From NCBI GenBank assembly GCA_024281055.1, contig JAMXLF010000045.1, positions 1 through 64,000 on the forward strand: a DNA stretch of 64,000 nt, written 5' to 3'. How positions within the stretch are numbered: position 1 is the stretch's first letter; each line of letters starts with the position of its first letter. Positions 43,820 to 50,739 of the stretch are shown here, piece after piece. This DNA comes from Geobacteraceae bacterium. Lineage in GTDB: Bacteria; Desulfobacterota; Desulfuromonadia; Geobacterales; Geobacteraceae. A program made the position numbers and the translations under genes. Under the pieces are notes generated by a model, which had not been told where the DNA came from, made no database searches, and worked only from the letters and a program-made list of their open reading frames with translations.

Positions 43820-44440
43820 ATGAAATGTATTCGTAATGAAAAAGGTATTGCGCTCGTAACAGCCCTCATGTTCACCCTTGTCTGTCTGGCAATCATCATG
43901 ACTCTCATGTACTACGTATTGACGAGCACGAAGATGTCGGCTGCCCAGAAGCGATACCGAAATTCCCTCGAAGCGTCCTACGGGGGAACGGAGTTGGTAA
44001 CCAAGACAATCATTCCCGCACTTTTCAGCAATTATTCGGGTGGCAAGGTGTCTTTGCTGGCTGATTTCGGCAATCCGAGTCAACTCGGGCTGTATTTGGG
44101 GCCGGACCTCAAGACGAAATTGAACAATCCGACAGCGAACTGGGGAAGCGCCAGCAAGACAGTCAATCCCAAAGATTCTCCCGATATTACCTTTTCCCTC
44201 AGGGGACAAACCACGAGCAGCCACTTCAAGGTTTACAGCAAGATTGTCGACACGGTCCCCGGCGTAGGGCTCGTCGACGCCAGTGGCATAGACTATCTGG
44301 ACCCCGGCATGGGGACGGCCGGAACCAGCAACAGCACGCAGTCTCCACGGACACCGAATGTCTATTCGATCGAGGTCCAAGGGGAGGCGGAGGTTAATCC
44401 CAAGGAGAAAGCTGCCCTTTCCGTGCTGTACGCCTATTAG
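43820..44440 (+). CDS. pilX: Minor pilin PilX
   Basis: 206 aa. Leader MKCIRNEKG then IALVTALMFTLVCLAIIMTLMYYVL; the +5 Glu is absent (Thr), normal for PilX, which begins with GxALV. The rest matches PilX-type N termini only (KRYRNSLEASYGGTE); the C-terminal part is unrelated to anything I can name. Last gene of the minor pilin run; followed by a long non-coding leader region. Confidence 0.85.
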   Translation: MKCIRNEKGIALVTALMFTLVCLAIIMTLMYYVLTSTKMSAAQKRYRNSLEASYGGTELVTKTIIPALFSNYSGGKVSLLADFGNPSQLGLYLGPDLKTKLNNPTANWGSASKTVNPKDSPDITFSLRGQTTSSHFKVYSKIVDTVPGVGLVDASGIDYLDPGMGTAGTSNSTQSPRTPNVYSIEVQGEAEVNPKEKAALSVLYAY

Positions 44441-44559: not shown

Positions 44560-44664
44560 ATTCAATAAATTATGTAACATTTTATTTATGTTAAACAAAA
44601 TGGTATTTGATTTGCACTTTTTAAATGCAGTGATTTCACCGACAACTGAATAACTACTTGCGAT

Positions 44665-44738
44665 AACGACAATACTAAACCACCCGCGAGGGTGGGGCGG
44701 AAAGCCCACAGGGTCTCATGCAGACAGCCGGGATGCCG
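44665..44738 (+). ncRNA. GEMM-I riboswitch, probable cGAMP-responsive subtype (GEMM-Ib)
   Basis: The conserved GEMM core is readable: AATACTAAACC, a hairpin CACCC-GCGA-GGGTG with GNRA tetraloop, GGGCGGAAAGCCC, the second hairpin GGGTCTCATGCAGACAGCC with tetraloop-receptor-like features, and GCCGGGATGCC. Aligned with the Vibrio Vc2 aptamer, the base matching G20 falls at 44674 and is A, the change reported to favour 3',3'-cGAMP in Geobacter riboswitches. The 3' strand of the aptamer is also the 5' arm of a terminator. It precedes the xre-pilMNOPQ genes. P1 pairing is weak by eye. Confidence 0.85.
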
Positions 44739-44773
44739 AAATATCATTTTCATTTTGGCATCCCGGTTTTTTT
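44728..44773 (+). terminator. Riboswitch-controlled terminator
   Basis: 10-bp G+C-rich stem (44728-44737 with 44757-44766), 19-base A/T-rich loop and seven T. The 5' arm overlaps the last conserved bases of the GEMM aptamer, so ligand binding would block the hairpin and allow read-through (an ON switch by this layout). Confidence 0.85.
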
Positions 44774-44842
44774 ATATTCGTCTCACAATTGTCTTTAATT
44801 TGTTATATGAAAGTATCATTTAATATAATTAACAAAAATTTC

Positions 44843-44870
44843 TTGACATTTGATTTAATTATAGTAAATT
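44843..44870 (+). promoter_or_regulatory. Putative sigma-70 promoter after the riboswitch
   Basis: TTGACA (44843-44848), 16-base spacer, TAAATT (44865-44870) in an A/T-rich tract, 33 bases before the xre ATG. If active it would bypass the riboswitch. Confidence 0.5.
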
Positions 44871-44903: not shown

Positions 44904-45107
44904 ATGATGAAGCATCCAAATCATGTCAAGAAATTGAGAGAACAAAAGTTGATGAGTAAGGCGGAACTTGCCAGGTTGGCAGGTGTTTCTGCGGTTACGA
45001 TCGATCGTATTGAAAATGGCGAAACATGCCGCATGGAGACCAAGAGAAAAATTATTCTGGCACTCGGGTTTTCTCTTGTCGACAAAGACAAGGTATTTCA
45101 GGATTAA
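44904..45107 (+). CDS. Small XRE-family DNA-binding protein
   Basis: 67 aa, essentially one Cro/C1-type helix-turn-helix: HVKKLREQKLMSKAELARLAGVS followed by TIDRIENGETCRMETKRKIILALG. Tandem ATG codons at 44904; the weak GGGA upstream is the only ribosome binding signal. Placed 20 bases before pilM, in the same direction, so probably co-transcribed; a role in controlling the pilM operon is an inference from position. Confidence 0.85.
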   Translation: MMKHPNHVKKLREQKLMSKAELARLAGVSAVTIDRIENGETCRMETKRKIILALGFSLVDKDKVFQD

Positions 45108-45127: not shown

Positions 45128-46180
45128 ATGTTTTTCTCCAAGAATAAGGAAATAGTAGGCATCGATATCGGATCGAGTTCTGTGAAACTGGTGCAATTGA
45201 AGGGCCATAAGGAAGGATATCTCGTGGAAAATATCGGGATGGCGCCCCTTCCGCCTGAAGCCATTGTCGATAATACCCTGATGGACAGTTCGTCGGTAGT
45301 GGAAGTGATCAGGAATCTTCTGAAGGGCCTCAATATCATGGCAAAAGAGGCTGCATGCTCCGTATCGGGTAATGCCGTGATCATCAGAAAGATATCCATG
45401 CCCACGATGCCGCAGGATGAGCTTGAGGACCAGATTCAGTGGGAGGCGGAGCAGTACATACCCTTCGATATTAATGACGTCAATATCGACTTCCAGATTC
45501 TCGCATCGGATGATTATGATGCTGCGAAGATGAACGTTCTTCTTGTTGCCAGTAAAAAAGACATAATCAATGATTACCTTGCAGTATTTAACGAAGCCGG
45601 GCTCAAGCTCGTTGTTGTGGATGTTGATGCGTTTGCCGTGCAGAATGTCTTCGAGCTCAATTACGAGCCTGCGCCCGATGAAGTCTCTGCACTCATCAAT
45701 ATCGGCGCGAGCATAATGAACCTGAACATCGTCAAAGACGGGGTATCGCTTTTTACCCGCGATGTTCAGATGGGAGGCAATCTCTATACCGAAGAATTGC
45801 AGAAGCAGTTCGGAGTAAGTACCGACGAAGCAGAGCAGCTTAAAATTACCGGGGATGCACCCGATCAGGAGCGGTTGCGGGAGACTGTTGCCCGGGTTAA
45901 CGAAACACTTGCCTTGGAGATGCGCCGGTCGCTTGATTTTTATAATTCCACCGCCGGCGACGAGAAAATCGTCAAGGTATACATGAGCGGTGGTGGGGCA
46001 AAAATAGCAATGCTTGTGGATGTCGTAAGTCAAAGGCTCGGCCTTCCCGTCGAGATACTGGACCCGTTTCGGAAAATCAAATTCAACGAGAAAGAATTTG
46101 ACCCTGAATATCTTCAGGAAATCGGGCCTCTCGTGACTGTTGCTATGGGGCTGGCGACAAGGAGGCTTGGCGATAAATGA
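45128..46180 (+). CDS. pilM: Type IV pilus inner-membrane platform protein PilM
   Basis: 350 aa, FtsA/actin-like cytoplasmic ATP-binding protein: EIVGIDIGSSSVKLVQLKG at the N terminus, DQIQWEAEQYIPFDI, LINIGASIMNLNIV, GGGAKIAMLVDVV, and VAMGLATRRLGDK at the C terminus. It binds the N-terminal tail of PilN. The stop overlaps the pilN start by four bases. Confidence 0.95.
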   Translation: MFFSKNKEIVGIDIGSSSVKLVQLKGHKEGYLVENIGMAPLPPEAIVDNTLMDSSSVVEVIRNLLKGLNIMAKEAACSVSGNAVIIRKISMPTMPQDELEDQIQWEAEQYIPFDINDVNIDFQILASDDYDAAKMNVLLVASKKDIINDYLAVFNEAGLKLVVVDVDAFAVQNVFELNYEPAPDEVSALINIGASIMNLNIVKDGVSLFTRDVQMGGNLYTEELQKQFGVSTDEAEQLKITGDAPDQERLRETVARVNETLALEMRRSLDFYNSTAGDEKIVKVYMSGGGAKIAMLVDVVSQRLGLPVEILDPFRKIKFNEKEFDPEYLQEIGPLVTVAMGLATRRLGDK

Positions 46181-46746
46181 TAAGGATAAACTTACTACCC
46201 GTCAGAGCCATCAAGAAAAAGGAAACGGCGAAGCAGCAGGTCGTTATACTGGTCTTTTCTGTGTGTGCCCTGCTGGCAATTGGAATTGCAGTGTTTACCG
46301 TTTTGCAGACCAAGATTGTCATGGCGAAAAACGAGATTGCAAACTCGGAAAAAGAATTGCAGCAATTGAAGGCCAAGATTGGAGAAATCGAAAACATCAA
46401 AAAACTTCAGGACGAAGTAAAAAAGAAACTTGATGTTCTCAACCAACTCAGAAAAGACAAGGCCGGTCCAGCCAACCGGCTGGCCAAGCTCAGTGAGGCG
46501 TTGCCCGACAAAGTCTGGCTGACCAGGTACAACGAAAACGGAAGTAACGTTTCTCTTGCCGGGATTGCTTACACTGAAGACCTCATAGCCGAATTCATGC
46601 GCAATTTGCAAGCTACGGAATATTTTGCCAATGTCGAATTGCTGGTCTCCCAGCAGACCGAGATCAACGGCGTGAAAGCTAAGCAATTCGAGCTTTCCTG
46701 TTTGATCAAGAGCGGTCCGCAACCGCAACCACAACCGCAGAAGTAA
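46177..46746 (+). CDS. pilN: Type IV pilus alignment protein PilN
   Basis: 189 aa. Begins with the PilM-binding motif INLLPVR, then one transmembrane helix (VVILVFSVCALLAIGIAVFTVL, about 20-41), a periplasmic coiled coil (NEIANSEKELQQLKAKIGEIENIKKLQ, in parts), and a ferredoxin-like domain (SLAGIAYTEDLIAEFMRNLQ). Ends in a Pro/Gln repeat. Partner of PilO. Confidence 0.94.
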   Translation: MIRINLLPVRAIKKKETAKQQVVILVFSVCALLAIGIAVFTVLQTKIVMAKNEIANSEKELQQLKAKIGEIENIKKLQDEVKKKLDVLNQLRKDKAGPANRLAKLSEALPDKVWLTRYNENGSNVSLAGIAYTEDLIAEFMRNLQATEYFANVELLVSQQTEINGVKAKQFELSCLIKSGPQPQPQPQK

Positions 46747-46799: not shown

Positions 46800-47399
46800 A
46801 TGGACCCTAGACTGCAAAAAATTTTGAAGCTCCCGAACAAGCAGAAAGCCGCCCTTCTTGCGCTCATTTTGCTGGCAGAGGGCGCCGGCTTGTTCTTTGG
46901 GCTGCACCAGCCGCGTCTGAACGAGCTCAAGGCGCTGCGGGGTAAACTGGATGGCCTGCGAGCCCAGGTCGCGGACACGAAAAAGATCGCTGACAATTTG
47001 CCCCGGTACAAAAGCGAGTTTGCCCAGCTTCAGAAAGAACTGGAAAATGCCCTGACCGAATTGCCGAACCAGAAGGAAATACCCTCACTCTTGACAACAA
47101 TTACCGCAGCCGGCAAAGGTGCCGGACTTGATTTTCTGATATTCAGGCCCAAGGCGGAAGAACCGAAAGACTTTTATGCGGCGGTGCCGGTTGACATAAC
47201 CGTTTCCGGTTCGTATTACAGTGTGGCCAATTTCTTCGTAGCAGTTGCCAAGCTTCCGCGGATTGTGAATATTACGAATGTTACTTTCCCCGAGATAAAA
47301 AGCTCTGGTGGTCGAACCTTGGTCAGAGTTTCGTGTCTGGCGACAACGTTCCGTTTCCTTGACAAGAAAGAGATTAAGAATGACAAAAAAGGAAAATAA
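46800..47399 (+). CDS. pilO: Type IV pilus alignment protein PilO
   Basis: 199 aa. One transmembrane helix (AALLALILLAEGAGLFFG, about 15-32), a coiled coil (ELKALRGKLDGLRAQVADTKKIADNLP, in parts), then the PilO domain (LPNQKEIPSLLTTITAAGKGAGL, VPVDITVSGSYYSVANFFVAVAKLPRIVN, in parts). Forms heterodimers with PilN in the periplasm. Its end overlaps pilP by 20 bases. Confidence 0.94.
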   Translation: MDPRLQKILKLPNKQKAALLALILLAEGAGLFFGLHQPRLNELKALRGKLDGLRAQVADTKKIADNLPRYKSEFAQLQKELENALTELPNQKEIPSLLTTITAAGKGAGLDFLIFRPKAEEPKDFYAAVPVDITVSGSYYSVANFFVAVAKLPRIVNITNVTFPEIKSSGGRTLVRVSCLATTFRFLDKKEIKNDKKGK

Positions 47400-47931
47400 T
47401 CAATTTCTGGTCGTACTGCTTCTTGGGCTGGCGTTATCTTTGCCGGGATGCACAAAGAAAGAGCCGCCTCCGCCGCCCCAGACACCACAACCTAAGCCGG
47501 CCGCCAAGCCGTCTCCTCCGCCAGTTTCGGTGCAGCAGCAGGCTTCATCGGCGAAAGCTGCCCAGTCACAATTTGACTTTAGCTCCAAGAAAGATCCGTT
47601 TAAGCCTTATGTCGCCGAGGTTGCTCAGGGAAAGCCAGCTGTCGGGCCGGGCAAGGGTGGAAAAACTGAGGAAGTCCTTCCTATCCAAAGCTACGATGTA
47701 ACCAAATTCAAGGTTGCCGGTATCATTGTCGGCATGAAAGAAAATTCAGCGCTGATAATCGATCCAAAGGGCAAAGGTTACGTGGTGAAGCAAGGTATGC
47801 TGATCGGTAACAACGATGGCCGGATAACCCGGATAGCCTCGACTTACATAGAGGTAACGGAACTCTACCGAGAAGAGAATGGCCGTACCAGGAAGCAAAC
47901 AACCAGGCTTGTACTGTCCCAGAAAAAGTAA
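47380..47931 (+). CDS. pilP: Type IV pilus lipoprotein PilP
   Basis: 183 aa from ATG 47380, inside the end of pilO, with lipobox LPGC (Cys near residue 23). A Pro-rich linker (EPPPPPQTPQPKP) leads to the PilP beta domain: FKVAGIIVGMKENSALIIDPKGKGYVVKQG. Inner-membrane-anchored link from PilNO to the PilQ secretin. Earlier in-frame starts give extra residues without the lipobox at the right place. Confidence 0.93.
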   Translation: MTKKENNQFLVVLLLGLALSLPGCTKKEPPPPPQTPQPKPAAKPSPPPVSVQQQASSAKAAQSQFDFSSKKDPFKPYVAEVAQGKPAVGPGKGGKTEEVLPIQSYDVTKFKVAGIIVGMKENSALIIDPKGKGYVVKQGMLIGNNDGRITRIASTYIEVTELYREENGRTRKQTTRLVLSQKK

Positions 47932-47943
47932 GGAGACTTCCAG

Positions 47944-50739
47944 ATGAGCATGCGCACAGACAGAATGATTTTCAAGGCTATCACCCTGCTGTTTCTTCTG
48001 GTAGTTTCAGCCGGATGCGCAGAGACAAATATCGGTGTCAAGGATGCTTCTCAGCCCGCCATGAGCGACACGTCTGTCATCCAGGCCGTCAAAGTCTCCA
48101 GTGATGCTTCTCAAGTGGAGATTTCCGCTGACAAACGCCTTACCTTTACATTCTATAAGTCTACCGAACCTCCTATGGCGGTTATTGACCTGGCACAGAC
48201 CGAACCGGGAGCTGTAACAAGACAAATCGCTGTGAATTCCGGAATTATTAGGGATATCCACATTAGCAGCCATAGTGTGGGTGGTGGTGTGTTGAGCCGC
48301 ATCGAAATTGCCTTGACGAAAGATGCGGAGTTCACGGTAACGCCTGACCCTGTGGATAAAGCCAAGCTTTTGGTTACATTTCCAAAGACTCAGGCAGCTG
48401 CGGCTGCCACAGTAAATGCGGAAGGGAAAGCGGAAGTAAAAGAAACAGCTCAACCGGAAGCTGTAAAATCTGCTCCACCGGCAGCTGCGGCAGAACTGCG
48501 AATAAAGCCCGAGGATGGCGGGGCAAAGCCAGAGGCCGCTATCAAGGAAAAGGGGATAACCGCGTCCGAAATCAAGGAAAGCGATGCCTCCCCTATGGCA
48601 AGTTCAACCAATCCGGCCCCGGCGCCTGCTGTGACAACGAAAAGAGAGGAAATTGCGGCAGGGGTCGAAGCCAAAGATGCTATCAAGCCAGGACAGAGAG
48701 TCTTGACGGCCATTAACGTTGTCAAGGACGGGGTGGAACTGGAAGTAAATGGTGGAGTGGAGAGTTTTAATGCATTTAAGCTTACGAAACCGACGCGACT
48801 GGTTGTTGATATTATAGGAGCAAAAAGTGGCATCGCTGCGAAAGTTATTCCCGTGAATAGCTTCGGCATCGCAAAGGCACGTTTGGGGACGACCGCGGAT
48901 AAGGTTCGGATCGTTTTCGATTCGTCTAAAGAGGCCCTTCCTGCTTACAAGGTAACTAAGTATGACAAGGGAGTTAAGGTCGATTTTGCTGGCGTGCCCA
49001 TCACTTCATCCGCAAAAGCGGCGCCGACCACCAAAGGTAGCTCGCAGGCTTTGCCGGCGCCTGAGTCAAGAAGTGCTGGAAAGGGCAGAACCGGAATCGT
49101 AGAAGCTTTAGACTTCAAGTTGGTGGATGGGTATTCGAGGATTGCCATCAAGGTGTCCGGTGATTGCATTGTGGGCAAGCCGGTAAAGACCGCTGAAGGT
49201 CTTGCACTTACGATAAAAAAATGCCAGATACCGGCGAACCTGCAACGCATGCTTGATACAAGGGCCTTTGCAAGTGTCGTCACGGCCGTTACCCCCTATC
49301 AGATCAGGATGAAAAAAGGGTATGATTCAAGATTTCTCGTGAGATTGCGCGCAGATGCACCCTATAAGATAAATCAGGAAGGAGATACCATCTTTTGGGA
49401 TATAAAGAACCCCGAAGGAATGGAAACACCGTCTCTGATGTCCGAGGTTGCCAAGCCGCCTGTGCCTCGTCCCGTGGCGGTTAAGCCGGGAAAGACGGAA
49501 ATGATCGATACTGCAGCGTCCAAGGCCGCACAGAAAAAGACCTATACAGGAAGAAGGGTTTCCCTCGAATTTTCCGATGCTGATATCCGAAAGATATTTC
49601 AACTGATTGCCGAGGTCAGCAATCTCAATTTTCTTATTGCCGATGATGTCAGCGGTACTATCAGTCTCAAGCTTATAAATGTTCCTTGGGATCAGGCTCT
49701 CGATGTCATTCTGGAGAGCAAGAACCTTGAGAAAAAGCAAGAAGGAAATATCATGTATATCCGGCCGAAGGGGAGGTTCAAAACCCAGGAGCAGGAAGAT
49801 GCGGAGGCACAGAAGCTTCGCGAAAGAACAATGCCGCTCAAAACTCAGGTGTTCGATGTGAATTTCGCGGCGATTGGTGATGTAGCTGGTCAGTTTAATA
49901 CGCTTGCAAGCGAGCGGGGAAAGATTATCCAGGATGCGCGTACCAATAAAGTTATCGTGACAGATATTGAGCCAAAACTTCAGGCGATGAAGGATCTGCT
50001 GAAAATACTCGACGTGCCCGAGAAGCAGGTCATGATCGAGGCACGGATTGTTGAGGCAACCTCGACCTTTGTTCGCGATCTTGGGGTACAATGGGGGATT
50101 CATTACAACGATGGTTCCGCGTCGATTCTCGGAATCAACAAGCTTGATACAGGTTTCGGCGGTGTCGTGAGTGCACCGCCAGCGTCCGGATTACCGACTG
50201 TTGACAGCTCGGGCGGTGCATTGGGACTATCGTTCGGGACTCTCACGAGCAACGTCCAGGTTGACCTGAGATTGTCCGCGGCGGCCACAGCAGGGTTAAT
50301 CAAAATTGTCTCTACCCCCAAGGTGGTCACACTCAACAATAAGGCAGCAAAGATCACGCAAGGGCAGTCGATTCCCTATCAGACGACGTCTGCGGAGGGG
50401 ACCAAGACGGAATTCGTCCAGGCGGCGCTCACGCTCGAAGTTACTCCGCATATTACCGCTGATGGTAACATTGGCATGAAGGTTCATGCTTCCAACAACT
50501 CAGCTGGGACGGGGAACCCTCCACCGATCAACACAAAGGAAGCAACCACCGAACTACAGGTCAGAAACGGCGAAACCACCGTCATTGGCGGCATTTACGT
50601 TGACAGTGATACGGAGAGTGACCAGGGGGTTCCTTTCTTGATGAACATCCCCTTATTGGGCTGGTTGTTTAAGTCAAATACAGTCAACAAGACGAAAACT
50701 GAGCTGTTGATCTTTATAACGCCGAAAATCGTTTCTTGA
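47944..50739 (+). CDS. pilQ: Type IV pilus secretin PilQ
   Basis: 931 aa outer-membrane secretin. Lipobox VSAGC (C25) suggests a lipoprotein. Two or three AMIN-type peptidoglycan-binding repeats occupy roughly 35-135, 250-350 and 370-490, separated by Ala/Pro/Lys-rich linkers. Then come the STN-like domain (VSLEFSDADIRKIFQLIAEVSNLNF, in parts), an N1 domain (FDVNFAAIGDVA) and the secretin core, including VPFLMNIPLLGWLFKSN and LLIFITPKIV at the C terminus. Longer than many PilQ because of the linkers. Confidence 0.95.
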   Translation: MSMRTDRMIFKAITLLFLLVVSAGCAETNIGVKDASQPAMSDTSVIQAVKVSSDASQVEISADKRLTFTFYKSTEPPMAVIDLAQTEPGAVTRQIAVNSGIIRDIHISSHSVGGGVLSRIEIALTKDAEFTVTPDPVDKAKLLVTFPKTQAAAAATVNAEGKAEVKETAQPEAVKSAPPAAAAELRIKPEDGGAKPEAAIKEKGITASEIKESDASPMASSTNPAPAPAVTTKREEIAAGVEAKDAIKPGQRVLTAINVVKDGVELEVNGGVESFNAFKLTKPTRLVVDIIGAKSGIAAKVIPVNSFGIAKARLGTTADKVRIVFDSSKEALPAYKVTKYDKGVKVDFAGVPITSSAKAAPTTKGSSQALPAPESRSAGKGRTGIVEALDFKLVDGYSRIAIKVSGDCIVGKPVKTAEGLALTIKKCQIPANLQRMLDTRAFASVVTAVTPYQIRMKKGYDSRFLVRLRADAPYKINQEGDTIFWDIKNPEGMETPSLMSEVAKPPVPRPVAVKPGKTEMIDTAASKAAQKKTYTGRRVSLEFSDADIRKIFQLIAEVSNLNFLIADDVSGTISLKLINVPWDQALDVILESKNLEKKQEGNIMYIRPKGRFKTQEQEDAEAQKLRERTMPLKTQVFDVNFAAIGDVAGQFNTLASERGKIIQDARTNKVIVTDIEPKLQAMKDLLKILDVPEKQVMIEARIVEATSTFVRDLGVQWGIHYNDGSASILGINKLDTGFGGVVSAPPASGLPTVDSSGGALGLSFGTLTSNVQVDLRLSAAATAGLIKIVSTPKVVTLNNKAAKITQGQSIPYQTTSAEGTKTEFVQAALTLEVTPHITADGNIGMKVHASNNSAGTGNPPPINTKEATTELQVRNGETTVIGGIYVDSDTESDQGVPFLMNIPLLGWLFKSNTVNKTKTELLIFITPKIVS

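Follow-up and report, generated by a model that had tools for sequence, protein, structure and literature searches.

In the window, by which we mean the whole 64,000-nucleotide stretch of DNA analysed, the forward strand carries an xre-like gene for a helix-turn-helix regulator (44904-45107; Pfam HTH_3, E 5e-10), followed by pilM (45128-46180; PilM_2, E 5.9e-86), pilN (46177-46746; PilN, E 9.2e-22), pilO (46800-47399; PilO, E 1.9e-46), pilP (ORF 47308-47931, the true start probably lying within it near 47383; PilP, E 4.9e-15) and pilQ, encoding a secretin with AMIN domains (47944-50739; Secretin, E 1.8e-48). These are the six genes which the initial annotation had proposed as target of a riboswitch, and the proposal is supported by Pfam matches for all of them and by the adjacency of xre and pilM in 30 of the 30 homologous loci compared. 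Co-oriented genes lie upstream, ending at 44440; they feature N-methylation motifs of pilins, together with a PilX match which is weak and falls short of the family cut-off, and a long ORF among them may be read, from its sequence only, as pilY1-like. All features described below lie on the same, forward strand.

A conserved GEMM-I aptamer in the xre leader

A cmscan search of the whole window against Rfam identified a single riboswitch in the 64 kb, a match to RF01051 (GEMM-I, or c-di-GMP-I) at 44664-44740, which spans the full model, positions 1-87, and with 43.1 bits (E 4.2e-5) exceeds the gathering score of 35; the remaining Rfam match is a tRNA. The leader folds with an energy far lower than that of shuffled sequences (z -5.3, 0 of 200 shuffles). 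The 5' strand of P1, GAUA (44662-44665), pairs with UAUC at 44742-44745 in the folds of transcripts ending at 44746-44755. P2 is a stem-loop, CCACCC-GCGA-GGGUGG (44680-44695), and P3 extends from 44703 to 44734, its 3' strand being 44723-44734. The GEMM core had been recognized by reading the sequence, and the covariance match, together with the pairing kept in 19 relatives, substantiates it; location and description were right, but P1 starts three bases ahead of the start originally given.

A homolog of xre was found in 51 of the 58 genomes searched, the window's own genome included, and the aptamer lies beside 21 xre copies in 20 genomes, belonging to three families of the order. In 19 of these 21, 98.4% of the aptamer cells pair, a share which falls to 35-52% once the partners are displaced by 1 to 3 columns. 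Most variation resides in P2, which is 100% paired and contains two pairs changed on both sides; P3, with 97% of its cells paired, and P1b are nearly invariant, and thus little informative. The idea of a chance resemblance, or of a decayed aptamer copy, might appeal to a score falling in the lower half of the genome's 41 GEMM-I copies, but is refuted in practice by a score above the gathering threshold, an intact core and terminator, and the occurrence of the aptamer before xre homologs of 19 further genomes.

Predicted ligand preference and switching

In the cmscan alignment, the base determining ligand selectivity, number 20 in Vc2 numbering, is A44674. This had been read correctly at the outset; an A is found here in all 21 xre-linked aptamers, and A20 is the distinctive base of the GEMM-Ib, or cGAMP, subclass. 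The two neighbouring pairs are flipped: C44675-G44700 (C21-G46) and U44676-G44699 (U22-G45) replace the G-C and C-G of the canonical family, so that base pairing persists despite the altered letters, and the same arrangement recurs in 21 of 21 xre-linked aptamers. The cmscan alignment places the equivalent of A47, the base which stacks between the ligand bases in Vc2, at 44701, 27 bases past A20 as in Vc2. The equivalent of C92, the expected Watson-Crick partner of a ligand guanine, would be at about 44736; C44736 pairs with G44758 in the predicted terminator fold, and would thereby be buried.

The genome contains 26 GGDEF matches, two of which (L112 and L118) read GHLVGS, with a serine replacing the aspartate of GHxxGD, the position of the Hypr serine. 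An active-site serine is the mark of Hypr enzymes, the makers of cGAMP (PMC8835794), and L112 and L118 are predicted to be cGAMP synthases of this type.

From A20 and the published relatives, we infer that the ligand would be 3',3'-cGAMP. A20 alone confers preference, not exclusivity, for this dinucleotide. A ligand other than cGAMP within the cell, namely c-di-GMP, or the use of both dinucleotides, is suggested by the Rfam name of GEMM-I, a family which as a whole senses c-di-GMP, by the published binding of c-di-GMP to cGAMP riboswitches (PMC9262584), and by the ordinary aspartate of most GGDEF matches in the genome. It is nevertheless very unlikely, given the invariance of A20 among the 21 orthologous aptamers, the presence of the two Hypr-type proteins, and the behaviour of Gmet_0970, where an A20G change turns selectivity to c-di-GMP (PMC6456294).

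Most of the 41 GEMM-I matches in this 4.4 Mb genome are of the A20 type, and a few deserve mention on their own. Three aptamers are arranged in tandem before one long ORF (C26:76341, 76587 and 76820; L011, L020 and L001), the first two, each having A20 (cGAMP type) and a terminator, being followed by one of c-di-GMP type (G20); such an array might possibly act as a two-signal gate. Another (L026, C24:25710-25786) has a cGAMP-type scaffold and an overlapping terminator, yet a G at position 20; it mirrors in nature the A20G substitution which, when engineered, switches selectivity to c-di-GMP. A third aptamer type (L004, L006, L008, L009 and L017) combines A20 with the canonical G21-C46 and C22-G45 pairs and a CGCAGA core; by eye, no terminator overlaps the aptamer in these five.

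The aptamer of the xre leader is overlapped by a strong predicted intrinsic terminator (44727-44773; -26.8 kcal/mol), composed of a stem, 44727-44742 paired with 44752-44767, and a U-tract at 44767-44773. It was examined by folding, since its 9-base loop, beyond the limit of 8 used by the terminator scan, had caused that scan to overlook it. The aptamer, complete with P1, is the predicted fold for transcripts ending at 44746-44755, and the terminator hairpin that for transcripts reaching 44760 and beyond. In the prediction, the hairpin takes up the 3' strand of P3, C44736 and the 3' strand of P1; the two folds are therefore mutually exclusive, and the terminator is incompatible with a ligand-bound aptamer, as expected of a transcriptional ON switch. 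Both the strong terminator sharing the 3' arm of the aptamer and the ON logic had been part of the initial annotation: the former coincides with the computed overlap, and the latter agrees with the exclusive folds and with published close relatives. A comparable hairpin followed by a T-tract was detected by script in 20 of 21 relatives; in the last one it is visible by eye, the script having halted at an earlier T-rich stretch.

Putative promoters on either side of the switch

Between terminator and xre lies a conserved sigma-70-like promoter sequence, TTGACA-N16-TAAATT (44843-44870). Promoter calls of this kind are consensus matches in AT-rich DNA and, when the leader of the window alone was searched, sigma-70 matches were near the shuffle mean, and this one is not unusual; the argument for a promoter was therefore based on conservation. 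Among loci with the riboswitch, 23 of 24 have TTGAC[AT] 45 to 85 bases ahead of xre (0.57 on average in shuffles, at most 4), and so do 68 of 84 of those lacking it (2.0 on average in shuffles, at most 7), as against 14 of 387 and 23 of 1397 in control windows farther upstream. These loci are related, rather than independent events, and the shuffles leave kinship uncorrected, a point to which the absence of comparable conservation in the control windows is relevant. Several distant loci feature a full TTGACA-N16-TATAAT, and many of the loci devoid of the riboswitch a near-perfect one. Most likely, the sigma-70-like promoter predates the riboswitch and does not depend on it.

Because of this conserved element, the riboswitch probably gates only a part of xre-pilM transcription, and shares control of the operon. 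Were it the only gate, all xre-pilM transcription would have to begin ahead of the aptamer, with no promoter activity from the TTGACA element. A sigma-54-like element is indeed present upstream, and published work on pilM takes the riboswitch as the control point (PMC9262584); this explanation is however unlikely, in view of the constant distance of TTGAC[AT] from xre in both groups of loci and of the near-perfect promoter sequences in many loci with no riboswitch.

By eye, an AT-rich element like ATAATTATNTATAATT can be seen just upstream of the xre -35 box, in the window (44780-44842) as well as in the relatives L036, L051 and L060. It may serve as an UP element or, alternatively, as an operator bound by Xre.

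The predicted sigma-54-like promoter ahead of the aptamer, TGGTAT-N5-TTGC (44601-44615), has its GG at 44602-44603 and its GC at 44614-44615, with the correct 12-base spacing and a predicted start at about 44627; it scores 9 out of 10 (p ~0.003 versus shuffles). Across the family, 10 of the 14 loci with the riboswitch have a site scoring at least 8 (1.2 expected from shuffles), as against 4 of the 27 without it (2.6 expected), figures to be taken as exploratory, the pattern having been spotted by eye in the same loci before scoring. Among 30 other aptamers of the genome, just one lies within 130 bases of such a site, and many show, by eye, sigma-70-like boxes instead. The genome encodes rpoN. 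In G. sulfurreducens, an RpoN promoter was already known for pilA (PMC2725144); the main text of the RpoN regulon paper names neither pilM nor GSU2033.

A further alternative is that the aptamer acts on read-through out of the minor pilin and pilY1-like operon upstream, rather than on transcripts from a promoter of its own. The genes are co-oriented, and the terminator scan detected no terminator between the end of that operon and the aptamer. We regard this as doubtful, since the sigma-54-like element lies in between and is linked to the riboswitch across loci; own-promoter transcripts and operon read-through can, moreover, coexist as sources.

A proposed cGAMP-responsive boost to pilus assembly genes

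Taken together, the data point to a transcriptional ON riboswitch of GEMM-Ib type, responding to 3',3'-cGAMP, in the xre-pilMNOPQ leader of a Geobacter relative, a reading to which we assign a probability of roughly 0.85. A transcript would start at the upstream, probably sigma-54 dependent promoter, and the aptamer would be made first. Binding of cGAMP, its adenine read by A44674 and its guanine by a C at about 44736, would keep both P1 and the 3' half of P3 occupied, and RNA polymerase would read through. With no ligand, the same strand would build the terminator, and the transcript would end near 44773. The sigma-70-like promoter past the terminator would in turn produce a basal transcript independent of the riboswitch and, owing to this supply, cGAMP would raise pilus assembly rather than switch it on and off.

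The two-promoter architecture as a whole has, in our estimate, an even chance of being correct. Equally balanced is the evolutionary scenario by which the cGAMP riboswitch arrived as a module, equipped with its own sigma-54 promoter, upstream of an older xre-pilM sigma-70 promoter, adding to a constant basal supply a boost which would require both a sigma-54 activator and cGAMP.

The closest known counterpart is the pilM riboswitch of G. metallireducens, described by Landgraf et al. as a cGAMP ON switch with an affinity of ~0.25 uM, in which binding is lost once the terminator captures C75, through competition at C75/G102 (PMC9262584). Class, gene, ON logic and a terminator seizing the 3' strand of P3 and the ligand-pairing C are shared, whereas species and sequence differ; the likeness is drawn from the published description. 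The GEMM-Ib riboswitches of G. sulfurreducens (pgcA, omcAHG and pilMNOP) are likewise cGAMP ON switches located before pilus or cytochrome genes, in a species with GacA-type synthases, but its genome contains 17 GEMM-I copies, versus 41 here (PMC6456294). Vc2 of Vibrio cholerae, a c-di-GMP-I aptamer, has the same three-helix fold; it differs by G20, by its ligand, c-di-GMP, and by being a translational OFF switch, as described in PMC9262584.

The link between pili and cGAMP, put forward in the initial annotation, is thus supported as an interpretation but is not new, having been published for both Geobacter species (PMC6456294, PMC9262584); with the central idea established in sister species, the riboswitch described here adds one member. 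In G. sulfurreducens, pilMNOP and a transcriptional regulator fall 2-3 fold in the absence of GacA, the cGAMP synthase of this species, while some other targets are 10-16 fold lower upon gacA deletion (Hallberg et al., PMC6456294). This modest effect is no proof of a bypass promoter, since OmcST shows an equal drop of 2-3 fold (PMC6456294).

What is new is the prediction of two promoters, a sigma-70-like one past the switch and a sigma-54-like one ahead of it. Control of pilus assembly by cGAMP would reach beyond the two model Geobacter species, to several families of the order, and a conserved bypass promoter offers a concrete reason why loss of cGAMP may cut pil expression just 2-3 fold. If true, it would change the physiological reading of the well-studied pilM riboswitch.
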